Assembly: GCA_963924555.1 (NCBI GenBank)
Contig: OZ004598.1
Span: 1,326,501 to 1,390,500 of the forward strand
Direction: 5' to 3'
DNA: 64,000 nucleotides
Source: Crambe crambe
Taxonomy: Eukaryota; Porifera; Demospongiae; Poecilosclerida; Crambeidae
The notes beneath the pieces were generated by a model. That model was not told where the DNA came from. It searched no databases and saw nothing but the letters and a program-made list of their open reading frames with translations. This document shows positions 7,015 through 59,890 of the stretch, in pieces. The position numbers and the translations under genes are program-made. The number at the start of each line of letters is the position of its first letter. The stretch's first letter is position 1.

Positions 7015-7115
7015 CTTCTCTATACGGATCCGTAACCTAGAGTTACTATGAGCTTGCGCAGTAGATATTCACGATGCGCATGCTCTGAGTTATGTGCCCC
7101 AGCCCACATAGCAAC

Positions 7116-7524
7116 ATGGCTACTAATATTACTCGCTCTAGAAAGAGGTACAGATGTGTGTGTGGTTTCTGTAGAGGAACTAAATATGTTTCATATTCCA
7201 CAACAAGAAACCATCTTTCAGTTTATGGTGACATGTTGAATCCATCAGTTGGTAAGTTATATAGTTTTTACTATGTAGCTATATACAGAGTAATGTTAGT
7301 CCTGCATTATACATCATTACTAATAATACTTAAAGAATTGGAAGAAGAAGAGTGTGCCATGTCCACTGATAATGATGATGGCAATGGAAGCAATCTTGGT
7401 CACTGCAATAATGACGGTGTCGATGATAGGGGTGACAACAATGATGATAGTGATGATGATAGTGATAATAGTGGTGAAGACTTCAATGCTAATGATGAAT
7501 TCATAGATAATGGTGATGGTGACT

Positions 7525-7565
<41 letters not shown>

Positions 7566-10080
7566 CCTGGTGCGGATGTGAATGAACACATTGTCAGCAG
7601 TGATGGGGAGAATTTCATATTTCTCCGGTGGATTTTGATTGTTTTTTTCAGAATACAAGATCGTTTTCAGATCACAAACAAAGCAGCCACTTGTGTTCTT
7701 GCATTCATCTCAATGATACTAGCAATCATCAAGCATCCACTACATTTATTTTTCCCCACGACTTTAACATCGGCAGTCCAAAATGCTGATATTCATACTG
7801 TAATGGACAAGAAAATTTACTCAGTGTGTCCTAATGAAAAATGTTTTGCTCTACATAATGTTGGAGAGCAAAATTGCAACAGTACTATCTTTGGTAGATT
7901 GTGCGGAACATCTCTTGGATACAGGAGAAGATTGTCCCATGGAAGACAAAAGTGGACTGCATACAAAAAATTTCAATTCGTTGCTCCTTCCACATGGCTG
8001 AAGAAATTCTATACATCAGAAGAATTTGTTTCACTACTAGAGTACCCAAGTGTGAGGAGCGACTCCATTCTTAAGGACGTTAAAGATGGTCACATTTGGC
8101 AGAAATTTGCATCCCAGGGATTCTTTGACAGTAAATTTAATTTGGCTCTGATGTTGAATGTTGATTGGTTCAGGCCCTTCAAAAGATCTGAATACAAAGT
8201 GGCAGCTATAATGATGACAGTCCTCAATTTGCCCCGGGAAGAGAGATATAAGAAAAAATGGACGATAATAGCAGGTATATATGTGTACAATAATAGATGG
8301 GCACCAATATAATAAGATAGAAATGAATGTAAAAGACTTTAAACAGAATTATCATAATTATGTAGGTATTATTCCAGGACCAGACGAACCTCCAACTCAC
8401 ATTAACAGCTTCCTCCAACCACTAGTTGATGACCTGCTAGAGTTGTGGAAAGGAACCCCACTCAACCAAGATGGATCACAGTGTGTGAGAGCTGCTCTTC
8501 TAGCTGTAGCTACAGACCTGCCTGCCATGCGAAAAATAACACAATTCCTTGGCCATAAGGCTGATTTTGGTTGCTCTAGGTGCAAGTTTCAGGCTGAACG
8601 GGAACCAGGCACTGTAGGGGCATCTGGAAAAATGTCATACTACACATCAACATCAATTACAGCAAGAACTCACGAAGAGGTACTCACACAGGCCGAGGAA
8701 TTCAGATGTGCGACCACACGAGCAGAAGCCACACGTATCGCACAGAAGAATGGGGTGAGGTACTCGGAACTAACCAGGCTCCCGTACTTTGATATTGTCC
8801 GAATGACAACGGTTGATCCCATGCACACCTTTCTTCTTGGGATGGTCAGAAGAGAGACAGAGCTGAATCTTACGTTGTTGTCATCCAGAGAAAAATGTGA
8901 GTTGGTACGGAGATTGAAAAGTATAAGGATCCCGTATGACATAGGAAGGTTGCCATCAAGCATGTTTGATAATGACGGAGTAACTGGTGTTACTGCTGAC
9001 CAGTGGAAAACATACATCATTGTATGTGCAGTCCCTTGCATGTACAAACTTCTTCCGCAGATGGCATACAAATCATTAGTTCTGCTATCAGAAATAGTAG
9101 CAACCATAGTAGCTCCCTCCTTCTCGCTAGACACAATTGCATCTCTGTACAGGATGTTACATGAGCATCATGAACTTTTTTGCAAGGTCTATGGCAAGTG
9201 GGCTGTTTCAGTTAATTATCACATGAGTCTCCATTTACCTGACATCATCCTTGACCTCGGTCCACCACATACCTTTTGGTGTTTTAGCTACGAGAGGTTA
9301 AATGGTGTGATGGCAGGTACACCTAACAGCAACAGGTCAGTAGAAGTTGAAGTGGCCAACAGGTTTATGAGAGGCTCATTGTCCTTCAACTCAAATCTCC
9401 CAACTATAGAAGCTTCTAACATCCCCTCTAGCTTGAAAGAGTTTGTAGACACACCAGCAGACAGTGATCCACAGCTCCATTCCTACCCACGGACCTTTTG
9501 GGTTCTCTCTGCACTTTCTTCACCTCCAGAGTCAAGATTTGACCTCCAGATAGCATTAGACAAAGGTGATGTAAGGAATTGGCCCATCAAACTCCACCAT
9601 CCATGCAAGCGAAACTTGAAGATTGAGCCGTCTTTGCTCATTGAGTTGAGGAGATTTTTTGAAGACCTATATGGCAGCCATCTAGATTACATTCAACCTA
9701 GACTTCACAAGTATGGTCGTTGCTCAGTTAATGGACAGAACTTTTCCAGTGATTTCAATTCCTCAGACCGCAGCAGTGTAGTGAAAGCTGTGTTTGTCGA
9801 TGATGAGAATGTGCTGGCTCCTTACTTTGGAGTGGTAAGGTACTTCTTCACTACTACTGTAGTTGTGGATGCTCAGGCAAAGCTTCATTACCTCTCCTAT
9901 GTGACATGGTTGAAGTTCAAATCAGAGACTGCAGACCCTTTATCAAAGAAGTTCATGGTAACCAAGAACTTGTACCAAAGGGATCGGATCATTAGTCCTA
10001 GACGGTTCTTATGCCGATGTGTTCTTGCTGCTACGAAGGCCAATGAACCCTTTTACTTTGTGTCTGAGCTGCCAAAGTAG
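7116..10080 (+). CDS. TNP2-type (Transposase_21) CACTA/EnSpm-like transposase
   Basis: Three exons (7116-7251, 7336-8274, 8366-10080) splice to about 929 codons with no internal stop. The N-terminus has closely spaced cysteines (RYRCVCGFCRGT). A long Asp run coded by (GAT)n follows near 7,530-7,565. The core has the TNP2 pattern: CPNEKCFALH, LNVDWFRPFKRSEY, the block NLPREERYKKKWTIIAG joined by splicing to IIPGPDEPPTHINSFLQPLV, then DLLELW, DLPAMRK, GCSRCKF and DPMHTFLLGM. A DUF4218-like stretch (KWAVSVNYHMSLHLPDI, then FSYERLNG) follows. The end resembles DUF4216 (YFGVVRYFF, then HYLSYVTWLKF). It should cut and join the element's ends in the nucleus. The first intron (84 bp) has no stop and keeps frame, so intron retention would also be coding. 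An intact frame suggests recent activity. I have not assigned the DDE residues with certainty. Confidence 0.85.
8275..8365 (+). other. Intron 2 of the TNP2 transposase
   Basis: GTATAT..TGTAG borders join GCA-G to GT-ATT and restore the family's G-I-x-PGP block across the junction. Without removal the upstream frame stops at about 8,312. Confidence 0.8.
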
Positions 10081-14311: not shown

Positions 14312-16517
14312 CCAAGACTAAAGTTTTTTTTTGTTGTTTTTTTAATGAGTCACAAAAATTGCTCAGCAAGTGAAATATAAAAATGTAGAGAGGAGAAGTA
14401 AATAATAAGAAAAGTGAGACAAAAAGGTTAGGGTGAGTGTAATTAGTCCAATGCTGGGATGTGGCAGACCCGGGTGATAAGATCTGTTGGGGCCTCAGGT
14501 TCCCTGGTTGCATGGCCAATGGTGGAACGGGCACCCCTGATGCACATGATAGCTGCACGTAGCAGAGAGAATGAGAGACGACATCGGATCCAGCCCATGG
14601 TGTTGCTGTAGATATCATCTCTTTTTGTTGAGATAAGAGCGGCCAGTCTCTTGTATGTGTTTACAGCAGCACGTCCCATGCCACCAGTGCAAGACAGAAC
14701 GAGGGGAGTGAAAGAACCATGTTCAACTTCTCTGATTCGTTGATCATAGGACCTTTTCTTTGCATTTTCATGGGATCTGTAGCAAGTTGTTAGTTGGGAG
14801 TTTCGGTTTGAGGGAGCATATGGGTTGAAAACCCTTACATCAAAGAAAGCTCTCTCATGCCTACTTCCCCAGAAGCCATCAGCAGCGATGTCTAAGCGTG
14901 CTCCACTCTGACGATTTGATGATTGATTGTGGAGGGCTTCACCTTGTAGTGGCTGGAGATGTGGCTCTATTGCCACATTGTGGCAAACTTCTGAAAGGAG
15001 ATGTGCAGTGAAGTCCCGAATCTCATTATGTCTGATGGATGGATAACCTCCAGTGGGGCAGGAGAACGCATGTTCCACTGAGAAGTTGTGGCCACATGAG
15101 CAGGAGGATGGGGTATTGGTCAGCTGCCAACCATACCTCAGGGCCAAAGCGTCTCTGAAAGCACTCTTGTGGAGTGAGAATCTAAACTCTTCCACGGGCA
15201 GTACGGTAAGCCATTTTGAGGCTCCCTTTTCTTGAGAAAGATCCATAGCTCTTTGCAGCTCGATAGGTAGATTAGCTCTAACGGAACTGGCCTGAGTGTT
15301 CTGAATGGTGCGCTTTCTTTTCTTCACATCCGAGACAGCAGAAAGCTGCTCTGCATAGGCTTCGTAGGGATAGGAGCTCTCCTGTGCTAAAATGAGGTCA
15401 ACTAGTGGTTTTGTTACGTTCTTTGAAGCTGAGAATTCCTCGCTGGCAGTGATGGAGGGATTGGTGAGTCCTATCCCACCCAGTCGGCATGGGAGAGCTA
15501 GTAAGTCCCTCTCCTTATTATTTGGGGCAGGGCGACTCGATAATGTAGGAATTAACTCTGTCCGGATAATGTCCTCAAGGGGTTGTAGGAGAGGACCAAT
15601 GTTCTCGGTAGTTCTTGATAAGTATGACCATTTGTTGACAAGTCCATGTGTGAAGGCTGCATATACGGCTTGAGGGCTAGTCTCAGCGATTGAACACAAC
15701 AACTTCAATTCTTGACACCATCGGGCTACCTTCTCCTGCACATAGCTTTCTCGGAAGGAGGAGGTCCCCAGGGGGGAACCTAGGTAAGGGTGGCCATCTG
15801 AAGTAATCTTGATCTGTGTATCACCAAAGATGGTAGTGGCATTTGCGAAAGACGATTCCTTTGTTATCAGGTATGTTTTAGAAGCATTGACATGATATCC
15901 ATAAGCAGGGCCGTGAAAGACGAGGGCATCCCACCATGAGCGGAGATCTGATAGGTGACCGGTGGCTGAGGCATCGTCTGCATACCAGGCTTGAGTGACA
16001 GAACAGTGAGGGTTTACTTTCTTGATCAATGGTAGTAGGGCTATGGCATACATTGGCATAGCTAGTGGATCCCCTTGCGTAGCCCCTTCTTTGGAGTGTA
16101 GGGTTGTGCCTCCAACGAATAGTTCTGGGTCTTTCCGATAGGATAGATAGGAGTTAATCAACATGGTGGAGATGGAAGGGCATAAAGTTCTGATGTTTCT
16201 TAGGGCAACTTGAAGATTCAGGGAGTTGAAAGCATTACTTGCATCTACCAATAGAACAGCCTCACTGTTCTCCTCTTTCAAAGCGAGGTTCATGGCGTGT
16301 ACTGCTGCCTCAGTGCCGCTCTTTTGAAATGAATAGTCTCACAAACCCCAATAGGACGCACACCTGGGTTCTTGTTGAGGGCAATTAATCGGCAGGCCAT
16401 CAGAGGGGCTAGGCCCTCTGGGTCAACCAACATGGTGCAGATACGCCGAGTGAGTAGTGCCAGGGAGTTGCAGAGGCTGAGCCAAATGAGGTGCATAATC
16501 TCCTCCAAGACTAAAGT
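14312..16517 (-). mobile_element. 5'-truncated non-LTR-type retrotransposon with 13-bp target duplication
   Basis: CCAAGACTAAAGT occurs at 14,312-14,324 and 16,505-16,517. Directly inside the left copy is a T-rich tract (minus-strand poly(A) tail). The coding strand is minus and the 5' part is missing, as expected from incomplete target-primed reverse transcription. The duplication is still exact, which points to a fairly young insertion. Confidence 0.85.
14443..16504 (-). pseudogene. Reverse transcriptase with CCHC knuckle and restriction-like endonuclease
   Basis: The main open frame (14,443-16,293, up to 616 residues) carries RT motif A (VDASNAFNSLN), motif B (EGATQGDPLAM) and motif C (WYADDASATG). 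A knuckle C-x-C-x7-H-x3-C follows (CSCGHNFSVEHAFSC). A PD-(D/E)XK-like region comes next (RLDIAADGFW, then FFDVRVFNPY). This order (RT, zinc knuckle, REL endonuclease) is that of early-branching non-LTR elements such as the R2/CRE/NeSL groups; the exact clade is not assigned. A further RT piece (ICTMLVDPEGLAP, then NKNPGVRPIGVCETI) lies upstream at 16,290-16,504 in another frame, with residues apparently missing at the junction. The N-terminus is cut off at 16,504, so the copy is not autonomous. Confidence 0.85.
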
Positions 16518-48433: not shown

Positions 48434-51400
48434 TTATCTGTATGACAAGTTTTTTACATGCTGTAAACAATCAGCAAGAGCCTTGGCACCATCAGCACCA
48501 ATAGAGTTACTACTAAGATCCAGTGTTTGGAGGTTCATACAGTGTTTTAGACCTTCAGCAAGAGCCTTGGCACCATCAGCACCAATAGAGTTATTACGGA
48601 GATTCAGTGTTTGCAGGTTCGTAAAGTGTTTTAGACTTTCAGCAAGAGCCTTGGCACCATCAGCACCAATAGAGTTACTACGAAGATCCAATGTTTGCAG
48701 GTTAGTACAGTGGTTTAGACCTTCAGCAAGAGCCTTGGCACCATCAGCACCAATAGAGTTATTAAGGAGATTCAGTGTTTGCAGGTTCGTACAGTGTTTT
48801 AGACTTTCAGCAAGAGCCTTGGCACCATCAGCACCAATAGAGTTATTATGAAGATCCAATGTTTGCAGGTTCGTACAGTGTTTTAGACCTTCAGCAAGAG
48901 CCTTGGCACCATCAGCACCAATAGAGTTAATATTGAGACTCAGTGTTTGCAGGTTCGTACAATGTTTTAGACCTTCAGCAAGAGCCTTGGCACCATCATC
49001 ACCAACAGAGTTTCTATAGAGATTCAGCATTTGCAGGTTCGTACAGTGTTTTAGAGCTTCAGCAAGAGCCTTGGCACCATCAACACCAATAGAGTTATTA
49101 AGGAGATCCAGTGTTTGCAGGTTCGTACAGTGTTTTAGACTTTCAGCAAGAGCCTTGGCACCATCATCACCAATAGAGCTAATACTGAGATCCAATGTTT
49201 GCAGGTTCGTACAGTGTTTTAGACCTTCAGCAAGAGCCTTGGCACTATCAGCACCAATAGAGTTATTACTGAGATTCAGGGTTTGCAGGCTTGTACAGTG
49301 TTTTAGACCTTCAGCAAGAGCCTTGGCACCATAATCACCAACAGAGTTTCTATAGAGATTCAGCATTTGCAGGTTCGTACAGTGTTTTAGATATTCAGCA
49401 AGAGCCTTGGCACCATCAGCACCAATAGAGTTACTATGAAAATCCAGTGTTTGCAAGTTTGTACAGTGTTTTAGACATTCAGCAAGAGCCTTGGCACCAT
49501 CAGCACCAATAGAGTTACGATCAAGATCCAGCGTTTGCAGGTTCGTACAGTGTTTTAGACCTTCAGCAAGAGCCTTGGCACCATCAGCACCAATAGAGTT
49601 ATTACTGAGATTCAGCGTTTGCAGGCTTGTACAGTGTTTTAGACCTCCTTCAGCAAGAGCCTTGGCACCATCAACACCAATAGAGTTACTACAAAGATTC
49701 AGCGTTTGCAGATTCGTACAGTGTTTTAGACCTTCAGCAAGAGCCTTGACACCATCAGCACCAATAGAATTACTACGAAGATTCAGCGTTTGCAGGTTCG
49801 TACAGTGTTTTAGACCTTCAGCAAGAGCCTTGGCACCATCAGCACGAATATAATTATTATGAAGATCTAGTGTTTGCAGGTTTGTACAGTGTTTTAGACC
49901 TTCAGCAAGAGCCTTGGCACCATCATCACCAACAGAGTTTCTATAGAGATTCAGCATTTGCAGGTTCGTACAGTGTTTTAGAGCTTCAGCAAGAGCCTTG
50001 GCATCATTAGATGTGATATTTCTAGATTTAAAATTCAGTAACTGCAAGTTATAGTGGCTACCACATGTATTAGAGCAGAAAACAGACAATGCAGCACCAG
50101 CACAAACTATTTGAGAGAAATCCATGGAAGAAATGTCCACATCATGTTTGATATTGAGGAGAGCGATAGCACCTTCTTTGGTGATTTTTTGGTTGCATAA
50201 CAGGAGTTCCACATCTTTCACTGCTCTGGTGATAGCTATTGCTCCTTCATCACCTATTTTATTACATCTCAAGTCCAGTGAGTGGAGATTAGTACAGAGA
50301 ATAAGGCCTTCACTAAGAGATTTTGCTCCAGAATTACCTATAGCATTGAAACTGATGTCAAGTTTTTCAAGATGTGAAAGAGGGTTCTTTGTTAATGTTT
50401 CAGCAAGAGCAATTGATCCCTCGTCACCAATGTTATTCACATTCAACACAAGTTCTTTCAAACCAGCACAATGTGATAAACTTACTGCACAAGCCTTGGC
50501 TCCATCATCACCAATATTACAATTAGTAAGGATCAATCTTGTACAATGTGCATAATGTTCAAGACATTTTGAAACAAGCTTGACATCACTATAACTGAGC
50601 TCACGATTATGAACATCAAAGAAATCAAGCTCATTAATACTGTTGAAAAAAGTACTAAATCCAAAGATACTAATAAACTGATGAGCTGTATCAAATGATA
50701 AATACGGTTTAGGAAACTTCACTAACCTTACTTTAGGACTATTAAATTTTAATGATTCAAAAAAAAAAGAATCACCAACTACAAGGGTTTCAAGATTAGG
50801 TAAGGTGATATTACTAGTCAGAGCCTGCACTTTTTTTGGTCCTAATACTGTGTTAGATATATCTAATGTTTCCAAGGTATTCATTTTACCAAGTAAATTA
50901 TTAACCAACTCAAGTTGAGCCATGATGCAATTGCCTCCATGGTAACATAGGGTCTGTATTGACACCACACGATCACCAGCCTCCTTCAAGAATGCACTGA
51001 TGCCTTCTTCCGCTAATGTGCACCTGTTTAACACAAGTTTCTTAACAGGATGTGATTCAGAAGCAGTTCTGACAACGAAACCAATGGCTGTTAAGTCTGA
51101 TGGTGTCAAGAAGTGGCTTTTAAGAGTGAGACTACCTTCTTCTCCAGACCGAATCACACTGTCACATACGATGGATTGCTGAGATTCAAAGGCACACTGA
51201 ATGTGAAATAGATCATCAGCTGATTCTGAGCATTTCACAAGTTTTTCAAACTTCTTCATACCATTTTCGAAATTGATAAGACCACAGTAAAACTTCCACA
51301 CCACACGCATATGTTTCTTCTTACCATACTTCTCTATTATTTTAGTCTGTTCCTCCTCACCTAATTTAGTAATGTGATAAGCTGCAAGATATTCTTGAAA

Positions 51401-54400
51401 GGTGAGATGAAGAAATGTGTACAAGTCTTGGAATCCAAATTTGGCAGCAATGCAGTCTACAGTGATCAATCCCAGGGACTCTTTCCCACAACTCACGTCC
51501 TTAAAGAAATGCTTAATCTCACTGTGCTTCATCACTTGCTTGGAAGATACTGTTTTTTCAAAGGCAAGTTTACAAATCTGGAAAAAAATACCTCTTTCCA
51601 TTTCAGGAAGATCGTCAGGTGACTGCAAATATCTTTCGTTTTCATCGCAGCGCATTACAGTACGAAGGAGAGTGTGGATCATGAATGATGTATACATTTC
51701 TGTCTCAGTTCTAGCAAGGGCAGTACCCATAAGGTTGAATAAATAGCACACCATGGAAGCATGGATTGGAAGGTAGCACATGTGACGCACATTAGGATGC
51801 TGCTCAAGATAAGATTCAAGATTCTGGATTTTCTCAACATTTGAAAATTTGTACTCTTTTATGTACTGAGATATTTGTTCCTTCTGGAATCCAAGAACTT
51901 CCACTCGTTTGGTGGCTACTGACTTCAAATGCACCACAGCAGCTGGACGAGAAGCTACTACTACAATTGATTTGGGAAGAAGCTGTTTATTTATGAGTTT
52001 AAATATGGTGGTATTTTTCTTCCCTTTAGGTGAGTACTCATCTAGTCCATCAAGAGCAAAGCAAAGACCTTCCCCACTAAATCGCTCTGAATGATCTAAG
52101 ATTTGGTCAAGTCTTACTTGATCTTTGTAATAATGCTTCAAAATATCACGCAATTCAATAGAAGGATCATTAAGAAGTACTCGCAGATGGATCAGAAATA
52201 AAAATCGAATATTTTTCAGATTTAGTTTGCCACTGGCCCAATCTTGGCTGAACTTGTGGACAAGTGTGGTCTTCCCACTACCTGGACGACCTTCAATAAG
52301 CAATAATGTCCCACTAACGAGATTTGAAAATACTTCTTCGTACTCTATTCTGTCCTTGTCTTTTAAAATGTCATCCACATCTCCTTGTATGGTGTTGTAT
52401 GCATACTCCCCAGCCTTGTCAATTGCACCTGGTTTGATCAGAGCTAAGTTAATGTAAGTGTTACTACTTACTGGGGGCCACGTGTCCTTAGGTACTTCAG
52501 GTTGGGATAAATACATATCAATAAGCACTTTTTTCTCAGGTGAAACTTTAACAATTAATTTAATAGGCTCACTTTGTAACTTTTTATTTTCATGAGTTTG
52601 TACCTCGCAATGATAAGTTCCTTCTGATGCCATGGTTACATCATTTATGCATAGTATTTGCTTATGAGTACCACAATAAGTGGAATTATCATTCAAGGGA
52701 GCACCATCTTTCATCCATTGGTAGGTGATGGTTGTATCATAATTGGCAGACACCTGTACTTCAAGAAGAGCAGACTTTTCTTCTGTTACCTTACAGTCCA
52801 AAGTTTGAGATATGACTTCGAGATCTACGGGAGTTCCTTCTAAACATGGTCGCTTTACTTCAAGAGGAGTACATTTATGTGGTCTCTTCATACCTACTAC
52901 TACCTCAGCAGATAACTCCTCGCTACTTCCATCAGTAAGACTCTCAGTCATTGCAGATACACTATAATCACTTTCTCTTGCACAATACCCTTCATAACTA
53001 AGTCTCACTTGCTCTAATGCTTCACTAGATGTACCATGCTCAGATAATAACTTAAGCCATCGCTCATAGAGTCTAGGATTACTCTGCAGTGACTCGTACA
53101 CGTGTGAAAATAAGTACCTGATCTTTGTCGGCCAGTGCACATTAGGATCCATTGACTCTAAACTTTTCTTCACATCCTGAGAGATAAATCTTCTCTCTGA
53201 TCCAAATCTAGCTAAACTCACAAGATCGGTGTTCTTGAGTGAAGTTACTAACTTGTCTTCATGGTCCTTAAGAGCTTTTAAAACTGTTGTAGCTGATACT
53301 TCCATACTACCTGCAGTGTTGAAAAATTATGATGAAGTGACACATCATAATGGTAGACATACAACTTGTTGAGCTCATTACTAAACCCAACAAAATAACG
53401 ACATAAGGCAAAGACAGTGAGAGTGACTATCACATGACATACAGATAATGACAATGTCCATGCACCCACATGCAATAGCTAGCTGCACATGCATATATGC
53501 CAGCTGGCTGTACCCTTTACCAATCCAAGAGAAGGAAAGGGTTTAATTCAGCAAGCAAGCGAGCTCACTCTCTGGTCATGGCTCATTGAAATTGTAGATG
53601 TAAACGCTCAGAAATGCCCCAGCTAGGGTAGGTGTTGTGCAATAGTAGCGCCCGATAATATCTACATTGTCTTTGGTGGATAGTAGGCGCTCTGGAATCA
53701 TAGTTCCTTAAGATGCTCCCTTGTTATTAGGTGTAGGTGCTTTGGGAACAAACATGAACCTAACAGCAAGTTGGGTGGGTATTATTAGCATCGCCATGCA
53801 AATTTTAAATGCTAAATCAGTAAATAAGCCTAGAAGCTGAAATAGAGTTTATAAGCACTTGGTGACAGAGGGTAGATAGAGCAGCAAGAAAACCAGCAAC
53901 TAATTTATAAGTGAGGTGCATACCTAATAATGAGAGAGACTATGGTAACAACTTGAACTGGACACCTATATTTAGTTTTTGTTCCCTTACAAAATTCTTA
54001 GCTCTAATGTATAACATACCTCTGTCTCTTTCCTTGGCCACTCTCTTGGGAGAGGGAGGGAGTAGTCTTGGTTCTGGATTGGAATTTCTGGTTCGCATGG
54101 GGACCTTTGTTGAACCTATTAATACAATCAGAAGGTGAAGGCAATTGGAAGGTGAGGTTGAATCCATTAATTGCTATGGACCAGGTTTTTATTTGATGTG
54201 ATTTGAAAACGTAACCTTCAATCAAAAAGCTAAAAATAAACTCAAGGCTTTCTGCTTCTAGCTGCCATGAAGCCAGGGAATGGATCAAGGTCCTGGTTTT
54301 ACAGGAAAGAATAAGGCTAGACATGTACTAACTCGATCAGCTTCTTCCAGCAAACCTAGTTTGAAAGGATAAATCCTAATGCCATATGCTGGCTAATGTG

Positions 54401-56456
54401 ATGGTATCTGTTGTTTGACTGAACAGGAAAGAAGGCTAGACGAAAACCAGATTCTTCACCACGTGGTAAGGTTTGCTTTAAGTCTTCTACTACAAGTTTG
54501 GGAATAAATGCCATTTGCTGTCTGTTGGTTGCTATGCGCTTGTTTTTGTAACTCTAAGTTCAGCCTCTTGCAGATGAACTAAAAATCCAGAGGACTCCCC
54601 CATGACCTCCTGATTAGAGGTTACTACCACATTTTTTTGAAAATATTATGTGATCATCCTCACAGGTTTATTAGAAAACAAAGAGGGTGGGTCTCACATG
54701 GCAGCAAGTCTAGTTACTAAAGATTAACAGGCAGTAGAGAATATGTAGCTGAAAGTCGGCTTAGTTGTTATGATCAAACCTTTATCTCCAGGTCTTTCCG
54801 TTTCTGTGGGCACATTTGCTGAATCTATAGAAATGAAGTTGTTTATCTTGGAAACTCAGCATGGTTGTTACAATTACCTTCACCAGTTTGAAGGGAAGGA
54901 AGTGAACTGGAACTTGCTTCTGAATCTATAGAAAGTGAGTTGATTATCAATGACTACTCCATGGAATGGCCATCAGGACACAATACAAAGTAAAGCATGA
55001 TGTGTGTATCTTGCTGAAAGTTAGCTACCTGGAATTTATGAATCACACGAATTCATGCTTCTTACTATAGTAAAATATCACTTCCTGCTAAACATATCAC
55101 CAAAGCTAAAGTTAGTTTATACATACTGGGGGTGCTCCCCTTTCATTTCATTGTAGTTCACACTGTAGACTCATGTCATGGTACATTACAATGCACACAG
55201 TGACACTACAGGACTACTTCTCAGTAGTTACCAACCAATAATCATTTAGCACTGGTCAGCAGATCACTATAACTCTGGAATCATATATACTCCCTTGTTA
55301 TTAGGCATAGGCGCTTGTATCTCCAAACTGCCATTGGGGTGGGCATTATTTAGAGTACACACCCCACGGTCATGCAGAAATGCTTAACAAAGGGAAGTTA
55401 GAGCAGCAAGGAAACAAGCGACCAACTATTATTAACAAGTGAGGAGGTGTGGCTAATAACAAGGCTTCAAATACGGTAACAATGATGCAATATCTCAAAA
55501 CTTTTTTTGCCCTCCAAGTGGTCCCTTTTCTCTACAGATCACCAAAATTTAGAGCTCTATTGTATATAACATACCTCTGTCTCTTTTCTTAGCCACTCTT
55601 TTGGGAGAGGGAGGAAGTAGTCTTGGTTCTGGATTGAAATTTCTGGTTCGTGTGGGCATATTTGCTGAACCTATTAATAGAATCAGAAGGTGAAGGCAAT
55701 TGGAAGGTGAGGTTAATTACTATGGACCAGGCTTATTTATAATGCCATGTACGTAGTCTTCAATTAAAAAAAAAACTGACAATAAACTGAAGACTTTCTG
55801 CTTAAAGATCTAGCTGCCACGAAACCAGGGAATGAGACTCAAATGAATGGATCAAGGTCCCAGCCCCAAACCCACCAGGGTCCCTTACTAGCTATGACTG
55901 GATCGTCCAATTTAAAACTTTACTTGTACTGGATGTGTTCATAAAATGGTGCCTCAGACTGACAGTAATCAGGAGGTGATGGGGGGGAGTCCTACTCTTG
56001 ACTATGACTAGGTAACTAGCTAGCTACACTGCTCTCAACTTTGGAAATCTCCTTGCATTTATACACCATCCCAGACTGACTAGATGTGGAGTAGTTACTG
56101 AGTTAGGATTCACCTTGAAAAAGCTCACAAATCTTCAAGGCATCATCTGTCCTCTTTATTTCCAAGAGAGCTTCCATCAGTCTTCGATAAGTCGCCCATA
56201 TACTGAATTCTTGTGTCCATCTTTCCAAAAAGGCACTTCTCTTCCTCTCCTCATCATTAGGATAGTTCCTCTCAATGACGTCCACAACTTGTTGAGCGAT
56301 GCCCAAGATTGGAGCCAAACATCTCCACTCAGCAAGCGAATAAGACACCTCATGAAAGCGATCACTAGTCACTTTTTTGTCCAGAACACGCTCATCCGGT
56401 AACTGGCAATGTTGAACTAGTTCAGAAATACTAATTCCACCAGCTGGAGAAGTCAT
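48434..56456 (-). CDS. NLR-type receptor, locus A: Death - linkers - death-fold-like - Ig - NACHT - LRR
   Basis: Proposed exons are 56456-56114 (Death domain), linker cassettes 55670-55575, 54925-54878, 54824-54780 and 54115-54020, and a large exon 53310-48434 with stop TAA. All junctions are phase 1. Positions counted from the Met at 53,305: about 8-105 is a helical death-fold/CARD-like region, 106-160 a polar linker, and 163-255 an I-set-like Ig domain (TYQWMKDGAPL, then EGTYHCEV). NACHT follows, with Walker A GRPGSGKTT near 339-347 and Walker B LCFALDGLDE near 414-423, then VVVASRP. Divergent LRRs start near 750, and about 19 near-identical 28-residue LRRs run from about 1,100 to the end. 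It should be a cytosolic ATP-dependent sensor that signals through Death-domain partners. The exon-1 link is inferred from splice phase and shared cassettes. Without it, the Met at 53,305 gives 1,623 residues. No transmembrane segment is seen. Confidence 0.85.
48437..50010 (-). repeat. 84-bp LRR-coding repeat array, about 18 full units plus a partial
   Basis: Each unit codes a 28-residue RI-type LRR of the form DGAKALAExLKHCTNLQTLxL then xxNSIGA. The backbone is almost invariant at DNA level. Differences gather in the LxLxxN segment (for example DLHNN, NLRSN, NLCSN, DLDRN, NLYRN, SLNIN). One unit has an extra Gly codon. The NLYRNSVGD unit type occurs three times (units 1, 8, 12), which indicates block duplication. 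Confidence 0.9.
54020..55670 (-). CDS. Linker cassette exons of NLR locus A
   Basis: Exons 55670-55575 (96 nt), 54925-54878 (48), 54824-54780 (45) and 54115-54020 (96) are all phase 1 to phase 1 multiples of three. They code GSANMPTRTRNFNPEPRLL-type, DSEASSSSLPSLQTGE, DSANVPTETERPGDK and a second GSTKVPMRTRNSNPEP-type linker. The same exon types, in the same order, occur in locus B, with flanking introns conserved. Alternative inclusion would change linker length and charge only. Confidence 0.6.
54300..54560 (+). repeat. Inverted copy of a cassette-exon segment
   Basis: GGAAAGAAGGCTAGACGAAA at 54,428 and its surroundings match the locus-B cassette at 34,801-34,706, but on the plus strand, opposite to the other exons here. 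The inversion removes this cassette from the minus-strand transcript. Confidence 0.55.
56114..56456 (-). CDS. Death-domain first exon of NLR locus A
   Basis: It starts at Met 56,456 (MTSPAGGISISELVQHCQLP) and ends F-Q-G at a CAAG|GTGAAT donor, phase 1. The Death-domain pattern is clear: SLAEWRCLAPILGI, then QQVVDVIERNYPNDEERKR, FLERWTQEF, ATYRRLMEALLEIKRTDDAL and KICELF. It probably mediates adaptor binding. No 2A sequence is seen here, unlike locus B, so the two loci have different N-terminal exons. If the donor is not used, a stop follows two codons later. Confidence 0.7.
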
Positions 56457-58635: not shown

Positions 58636-59588
58636 CTAGAAAATGTTGCTTATTGTGCAAATAAGATCCGGGAGCAAGGTTTTGAAGAATTGGTACAGCT
58701 GCTCAGTAATAGAGCAACTGAGTTGTTTTGCCAGTACATGTCTGGTGAGCTGGATAACTCGGATCTTATCAAACAAGATGATGCTACATCAGTCCTCGAG
58801 TGTTACGTAGGGAGCAGTAAGTCACAAGACCTTACTAAAGTCTCAACAGAGTTAACAGTAGGTGAAGTTGTTTCTGCTCTTGGGCGGTTCATTGATTTCA
58901 ATATAGTCAATGTGGAGATGGTACTTACTATGGCTCCTGTGAATGCTGCTACTCTACTAATGGAGAATGCTGGGAAGAAAATTTCCCTGCCTGAGAAATG
59001 GAATCCAATCAATTCAGATAAATGATATCCTTGACTAGTTAGCAAAGACAGAGCTTGGTTGGGAAGCATCGGTAGCAAAACCAGTAGGATCAGCATTTGT
59101 TAACACTCTTTCTGATGTTCTTTGGTATCTGGATGGTAGTGAAAAAACTTTAGCTGACCGTTCTTTGGGTATTCCATCTCTATTCTGCCAGTTCCACGGC
59201 TATAAACAGCCTGAGAAACATAAGCACAGGAAATTTCTTGCCGAATCTTTGAAAGCAACCAATCTCCAAGCCCATTCTGTTCTGTTGCTCTACTTAATCT
59301 GTATTCATCATCATACATGAAGAGAAAACGTTGGGAGACTGTACGGATGCAATTCACACTCTTGCAACCAACTTGCAGCAGTATTCAGCTTATTTGGACT
59401 CCCAAAAGGAAGCATCAAAATAAAATCGGTCAAGAATGGTGGGCCAAACAGACATTGATGAGATAGGGGTTCTTGTACCTTCTGGAAATGTACTTCCTCC
59501 TCAATATAAAGCTCTTCGTGAAGCAGTGGAAAAGAAGGCACCCTTTGAACCAGTTTTTATAAATGAGTATGACCCATCTGAAGCTAGG

Positions 59589-59890
59589 AAGAGGTATGAG
59601 TATATCAAAGGAAGAGGTACGAGTATATCAAAGGAAGAGGTACGAGTATATCAAAGGAAGAGGTACGAGTATATCAAAGGAAGAGGTACGAGTATATCAA
59701 AGGAAGAGGTACGAGTATATCAAAGGAAGAGGTACGAGTATATCAAAGGAAGAGGTACGAGTATATCAAAGGAAGAGGTACGAGTATATCAAAGGAAGAG
59801 GTACGAGTATATCAAAGGAAGAGGTACGAGTATATCAAAGGAAGAGGTACGAGTATATCAAAGGAAGAGGTACGAGTATATCAAAGGGTT
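59589..59890 (+). repeat. 23-bp minisatellite inside the DDE-like coding region, about 13 units
   Basis: The unit GAGGTACGAGTATATCAAAG plus GAA repeats with almost no change. Because 23 is not a multiple of three, three units make one 23-residue peptide period, and all plus-strand frames stay open. It expanded from the codons for KRYEYIKG. Confidence 0.9.

Follow-up and report, generated by a model that had tools for sequence, protein, structure and literature searches.

The classes of animal NLRs rest on whichever N-terminal domain is visible to standard profiles. In sponges, a survey of Dysidea avara and ten other genomes gives, in the portion of its text available, NLRX as the most expanded class and NLRC as absent in 7 of 11 (PMC12909245). 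Ig domains are reported in sea-cucumber proteins with a NACHT domain: AjNLRC4 is described, in the accessible passages, as a membrane protein that lacks both CARD and LRR and whose authors knew of no earlier protein combining Ig and NACHT (PMC8699970), and the Ig of AjNLR-new from Apostichopus japonicus is said in excerpts to be intracellular and to recruit a microtubule-severing protein and actin (PMC13133943). For MALT1, the sections consulted describe tandem Ig domains that assemble into dimers and tetramers in solution (PMC3179463). Here we analyze a gene on the minus strand of a 64,000-nucleotide stretch of the Crambe crambe genome (contig OZ004598.1, positions 1,326,501 to 1,390,500; referred to as the window, with positions counted from its first letter). 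It encodes Death, CARD-type, Ig, NACHT and LRR domains and belongs to a large family. The initial annotation had called an Ig in front of NACHT unusual, which holds for the literature searched (titles, abstracts and passages, with most subscription papers and supplements outside), where no sponge NLR with an Ig was found; the arrangement is however no one-off in this genome, as detailed below.

Exon structure and domain organization

The minus-strand open frame from 53,326 to 48,434 comprises 1630 residues with Pfam matches to an I-set Ig, NACHT and a long LRR array. That a single large exon codes for a CARD-like region, an Ig, NACHT and LRRs, as first annotated, is borne out by the Pfam I-set, NACHT and LRR_6 matches, an AlphaFold2 model and Tandem Repeats Finder (TRF). 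An open reading frame (ORF) with a Death domain is found about 2.8 kb upstream. Both exons are in phase 1 and give the junction CELFQ-GSMEV in a predicted protein of 1739 amino acids; the predicted spliced DNA at the 56,114/53,310 junction reads CAAG followed by GTAGTATGG. Six of the seven array genes with a Death exon, the window's among them, were compared: ATG and donor of the Death exon are found in 6/6 copies, donor and acceptor motifs each occur once per stretch and yield an in-frame junction in all six genes, and the intron ranges from 1806 to 5984 bp. The proposed joining of the two exons by phase thus stands as a prediction from sequence. The intermediate exon once placed at 55,670-54,020 is unneeded: it falls at a repeat that occurs twice in the window intron and is matched in paralogue introns, and the Death exon is predicted to join directly.

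The window gene is part of a tandem array on C21 (1.29-1.64 Mb; loci L039-L053) with 15 NACHT copies, seven of which have a close upstream copy of the Death exon in the same orientation while none is listed for the other eight. Because of these eight copies, and because similar Death exons occur away from the array, the Death exon looks optional in the family, to judge from the sequences. Outside the Ig-NLR array, Death exons with 55-77% identity to that of the window lie at C21:727,658-1,101,245, C19:4,133,731 and C19:4,259,640; the Death exon is perhaps a reusable first exon. In five loci without a listed upstream Death exon (L040, L044, L046, L051 and L053) the frame runs through the old acceptor (MATHFNTAGSIEV or MATNFNTAGSIEV), and an in-frame Met lies just ahead of it, as would be expected had the first exon disappeared and the end of the intron become coding.

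Table 1. Features of the Ig-containing NLR gene in the window (TRF, Tandem Repeats Finder; HMM, hidden Markov model; pLDDT, predicted local distance difference test).
Feature	Position	Strand	Evidence
First coding exon, Death domain, ATG to donor CAAG/GTGA, phase 1	56114..56456	-	Pfam Death E 3.8e-7
Death domain match PF00531	56133..56333	-	ORF residues 46-112
Phase-1 intron, 2803 bp, GT-AG ends	53311..56113	-	Splice-site motifs
Large second coding exon including stop codon	48434..53310	-	Open frame; acceptor AACACTGCAG/GT
CARD-type helical domain	52991..53284	-	Family HMM; AlphaFold2 best model pLDDT 93.3; structural neighbours
I-set Ig domain without canonical B-strand cysteine	52541..52828	-	Pfam I-set 2.8e-7; model; fold matches; conservation
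Conserved Ig-to-NACHT linker	52304..52540	-	Alignment invariance; dN/dS 0.16
NACHT, Walker A GRPGSGKT and Walker B LDGLDEY	51851..52303	-	PF05729 E 1.8e-25, residues 342-492
LRR array, 84-bp unit, 18.3 copies, 89% matches	48471..50007	-	TRF

The Ig domain lacks the canonical cysteine pair

Structure prediction of the N-terminal region, suggested as a check at the outset, returned a CARD-type model (Table 1) and an Ig region with a pLDDT of about 94 that matches Ig folds. The I-set profile (PF07679) matches ORF residues 174-246 with 30.9 bits against a curated cut-off of 23.7, and the Ig model has 1090 PDB matches at E <= 0.001, the listed rows being nearly all Ig proteins. The Ig has core residues that are invariant. 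The B-F cysteine pair that is canonical for the Ig superfamily is absent: across 135 Ig copies no Cys occupies positions 20-26, the seven central positions of the B-strand, and the B-strand edge has a Cys at position 19 in three copies and at position 27 in one, while the F-strand Cys is present in 134. No membrane segment was seen either, the highest 19-residue Kyte-Doolittle mean being 1.37 in the large exon and 0.97 in the Death exon, without a dedicated predictor being run. Because of both observations, the Ig and the NLR family carrying it are probably cytosolic, and a role as an extracellular receptor part is disfavoured. Both the YxC motif of the Ig and Walker A were found in 113 proteins, and in 109 of these they lie 106-115 residues apart.

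Short Ig-like stretches, 50-57% identical to the window Ig, are located at C15:4,120,896, C15:3,898,221, C18:695,642, C18:746,830 and C18:889,692. They have stops inside or adjoining and no listed NACHT match beside them; they may be Ig exons in decay, or else a donor family.

CARD-type and Death-like domains

Profile searches, likewise proposed initially, recovered Death, I-set and NACHT, but not CARD: Pfam CARD (PF00619) gave no match on six copies at E up to 10. For the model of the CARD-type domain, CARDs stand at the top of the VIA-align structural list, which has to be taken with caveats; in Foldseek no E-value was significant and the first-ranked match was not a CARD. Among 50 VIA-align rows, which are limited to high Foldseek ranks and so exclude nothing, no chain is titled as only a Death, DED or pyrin domain, and one row is the p75NTR Death domain with the RIP2 CARD. 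PF00619 has 22 matches in the genome, none inside the C21 array. The second, Death-like domain is weak in Pfam, with a Death E-value of 0.043 in one of three copies.

A non-NLR protein with the same CARD-type domain was considered as a signalling partner and rejected, since 49 of 50 genomic places adjoin, by their coordinates, Ig or NACHT matches of the family, and the remaining place (C8:3,306,592) is a broken NLR of the same family.

Linker, NACHT and LRR array

The combination of a NACHT domain with Walker motifs and C-terminal LRRs makes this a bona fide NLR, the LRR_6 match having an E-value of 6.7e-107. All 11 invariant columns of a 51-row alignment, whose first row ends at residue 330, fall in the Ig-to-NACHT linker. 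Because the LRR array is so uniform (89%), unequal exchange within it is likely, judging from the repeat itself. Seventeen of about 18 window LRR units were compared (one with an altered start motif was missed), and variability is highest at unit positions 13 and 14, followed by 28, 19 and 11. For these five positions, which were chosen after looking, the pooled proportion of nonsynonymous differences (pN) is 0.354 against a synonymous proportion (pS) of 0.052; for the whole unit pN is 0.101 and pS 0.125. Positions 11, 13 and 14, however, correspond to the exposed x of LxLxxN on the concave face. A uniform array that varies at a few exposed positions recalls fungal NLRs that are reported to have high internal conservation.

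Selection on the N-terminal domains

Nonsynonymous (dN) and synonymous (dS) divergence was estimated for the C21 array by the Nei-Gojobori method. As a ratio of means, dN/dS is 0.49 in the NACHT-proximal Ig, 0.52 in the first CARD-type domain and 0.32 in the Death-like domain, with lower values in the linker (0.16) and NACHT (0.20); these ratios are only roughly comparable between domains, given a spread of median dS from 0.23 to 0.98, and the set counts two genes twice through overlapping stretches (L042/L043 and L048/L049). Median dS is 0.23 in the CARD-type domain and 0.27 in the Ig against 0.98 in NACHT, i.e. three- to fourfold lower in the N-termini, which suggests gene conversion or sequence exchange among the N-termini of the array. 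For 24 Ig copies from 15 frames, with both duplicates removed, pN/pS is 0.44 in strands and 0.62 in loops. On these ratios the Ig and the CARD-type domain are under constraint, which for the Ig is weaker than for NACHT. Because pN far exceeds pS at the concave LRR positions and the Ig is constrained, the substitution patterns make the LRR the most likely variable sensor surface.

Distribution of the family

Residues 8-321 encoded in the window match at least 102 places in the sponge's own 143-Mb genome. Comparing 43 Ig-covering places (picked by eye) with 103 NACHT matches, both source lists being lower bounds, the Ig region was found directly upstream of 37 of the 103 listed NACHT matches, on C21, C10, C16, C9, C13 and C1, and for six Ig places the NACHT list holds no partner. 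In the databases, residues 8-330 matched 155 proteins, 120 of them listed, a sample biased by this query toward the CARD-Ig region. According to family hidden Markov models applied to the window protein and the 120 listed matches, the Ig reaches at least 50 bits in 116/121 proteins and the CARD-type domain at least 25 bits in 120/121, with a second, Death-like domain in 97/121. Most often (80/121) the domains run CARD-type, Death-like, Ig, NACHT, and next most often (20/121) CARD-type, Ig, NACHT. The structure alignments took 50 (A1) and 45 (A3) of the listed matches. Some database matches are genes of this genome or near copies (P0002 is 100% identical to L051, P0006 99.9% to L050). P0040 is collinear with this genome over residues 2-1492, and with 31 of 436 candidates scored its partial matches reach 57% over a stretch from the Ig to beyond NACHT, and 71% within the LRRs. 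Because its full-length identity here is no better than 54%, we assign P0040, on its sequence, to a different genome that shares the domain design.

The number of CARD-Ig units varies. L051 has four before NACHT, in the order DF-DD2-Ig-DF-Ig-DF-Ig-DF-Ig-NACHT (DF, CARD-type; DD2, Death-like), L049 and L052 have two each, and L050 has two, each with a Death-like domain. Further, a 2701-amino-acid frame carries two NACHT units, the second of which (CARD-Ig-CARD-Ig-NACHT) follows directly on the LRR end of the first, with the fusion point at the exon boundary (ALAA-CSIEV). This double-NACHT arrangement occurs at L039 (C21:1,292,800-1,302,700) and L042 (C21:1,401,500-1,411,400), a second copy of it being split over several frames.

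Elsewhere in the window, at lower coordinates than the NLR, Pfam matches were found to Transposase_21 (E 2.6e-10; ORF 7,089-10,080, plus strand) and to a reverse transcriptase (E 1e-8; ORF 14,443-16,338, minus strand). A 23-bp tandem repeat (13.1 copies, 99% matches) at 59,586-59,887 on the plus strand is open in three plus-strand frames.

Proposed function and alternatives

Sequence or model establishes which domains are present and in what order, that the exon junction is in phase, that dozens of paralogues and another genome conserve the design, that the canonical Ig cysteine pair is missing, and that the near-uniform LRRs vary at concave positions. From this we propose, with about an even chance of being right as a whole, that the locus is a member of a large and probably cytosolic NLR family organized as Death (optional first exon), CARD-type, optional Death-like, Ig, NACHT and LRR, in which the LRRs sense, NACHT switches and the Ig is a spacer or oligomerisation module. 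The LRR array would bind a trigger, upon which ATP-driven NACHT oligomerisation would gather the N-termini. Caspases or adaptors could next be recruited by the clustered CARD and Death domains; PF00656 has 46 matches in the genome, in which caspases and any paracaspases are undivided, besides the 22 for PF00619. The Ig, at its near-constant distance before NACHT, may act as a rigid arm with a self-association or recruitment surface that positions the CARDs, a step that leans by analogy on the MALT1 oligomers and the AjNLR-new recruitment reported in the passages cited above. Paralogues with two to four CARD-Ig units would bring correspondingly more CARDs into each protomer.

Of the other roles considered for the Ig, an inert spacer copied along with its exon and without a function of its own would suit the varying unit number and a dN/dS near 0.5, but is unlikely in view of its presence in nearly all proteins of the (biased) sample, the invariant core and the near-constant distance to the Walker motif. 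It is more improbable still that the Ig is the ligand-binding part and the LRR secondary. There is a precedent in AjNLRC4, whose Ig binds microbes according to the available excerpts (PMC8699970), and Ig loops do vary more than strands; yet pN/pS is below 1 in both, the concave LRR positions are the strongly variable ones, the flanking domains are of cytosolic type, and hydrophobic segment and canonical cysteine pair are both missing. The initial annotation had instead thought of MALT1, which shares the order of death-fold then Ig, and a very similar fold is indeed found, with MALT1 Ig2 tied as top structural match. Further, a Dysidea avara transcript with Ig domains and a CARD is reported, in the text accessible, to be up-regulated 1 h after exposure to microbial patterns (PMC6208332). 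Nevertheless, descent of the CARD-Ig unit from MALT1, or MALT1-like docking to a Bcl10- or TRAF-like partner, is very doubtful: the best sequence matches are contactins and others, MALT1 is absent from the 60 listed of 92 matches and hence rejected as nearest Ig by sequence, each unit has a single Ig while MALT1 has two, and the consulted part of one study gives Porifera type 2 paracaspases only (PMC5978004). Kinship of the window Ig with MALT1 is unproven.

Equally improbable is a Death exon that is part of another gene, with the NLR beginning within the large exon, where the window has an ATG at 53,305. The eight array copies without a listed Death exon and the similar exons elsewhere on C21 and C19 could be read this way, but seven array copies keep the exon in the same orientation, the splice motifs are single and in phase in every gene compared, and where the window has its Met at 53,305, the 11 other distinct array copies compared that share the acceptor start have Ile. 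Taken together, the domain combination first noticed here is confirmed, and its initial interpretation is partly supported.

Implications and comparison with known systems

The 120 listed database matches carry, tallied by eye, 43 Ig, 2 Death and no CARD accessions from Pfam, and standard annotation would therefore file the family mostly under NLRX, without an N-terminal domain. About a third of the scored NACHT matches here adjoin CARD-type and Ig domains that go unseen by standard profiles in most database relatives. Should this hold generally, published sponge NLRC and NLRX counts need redoing, intracellular Ig domains in NLRs are far wider spread than the two sea-cucumber proteins found in the literature searched, and the CARD-Ig repeats lend themselves to a simple test of how the threshold of an inflammasome-like hub depends on valency. 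As a more speculative proposal, in which we place rather little confidence, early-branching animals might have an NLR class with a cytosolic Ig fixed in the switch and CARD-Ig units beaded up to four, so that one chain carries both the CARD polymer seed and the Ig scaffold that vertebrates keep on separate proteins (ASC, Bcl10-MALT1). In that case, much of sponge 'NLRX' would consist of receptors whose CARD-Ig N-termini are hidden.

In Apaf-1 and CED-4 a CARD precedes an oligomerising NTPase switch, the same order as in the window protein, but the switch is NB-ARC (with WD40 in Apaf-1) instead of NACHT and LRR, and the window protein has an Ig and a Death domain in addition. Like MALT1, which is cytosolic, it has a death-fold followed by an Ig of very similar fold without a disulfide bridge. 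MALT1 differs by its paracaspase domain, in place of which the window protein has NACHT and LRR (Peptidase_C14 gave no Pfam match in three ORFs at E up to 1, covering the best 25 families for the long ORF). Moreover, the window protein has one Ig per CARD, and no special sequence kinship between the two Igs was seen among the matches listed. The Igs of MALT1 keep two close cysteines, going by the sections consulted (PMC3179463), whereas those of the window family lack the B-strand one. AjNLRC4 and AjNLR-new likewise combine Ig and NACHT in one protein, with an intracellular Ig in AjNLR-new, but the passages available describe both as membrane receptors (PMC8699970, PMC13133943), whereas no membrane segment was seen in the window protein. 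AjNLRC4 reportedly has neither CARD nor LRR; the window gene has LRR, CARD-type and Death domains, and one exon spans CARD to LRR. The NLRD, NLRC and NLRX genes of sponges share NACHT and LRR with death-fold N-termini, large expansions and clusters of near copies, and the portion of the survey available lists no Ig in them (PMC12909245), in contrast to the gene described here.

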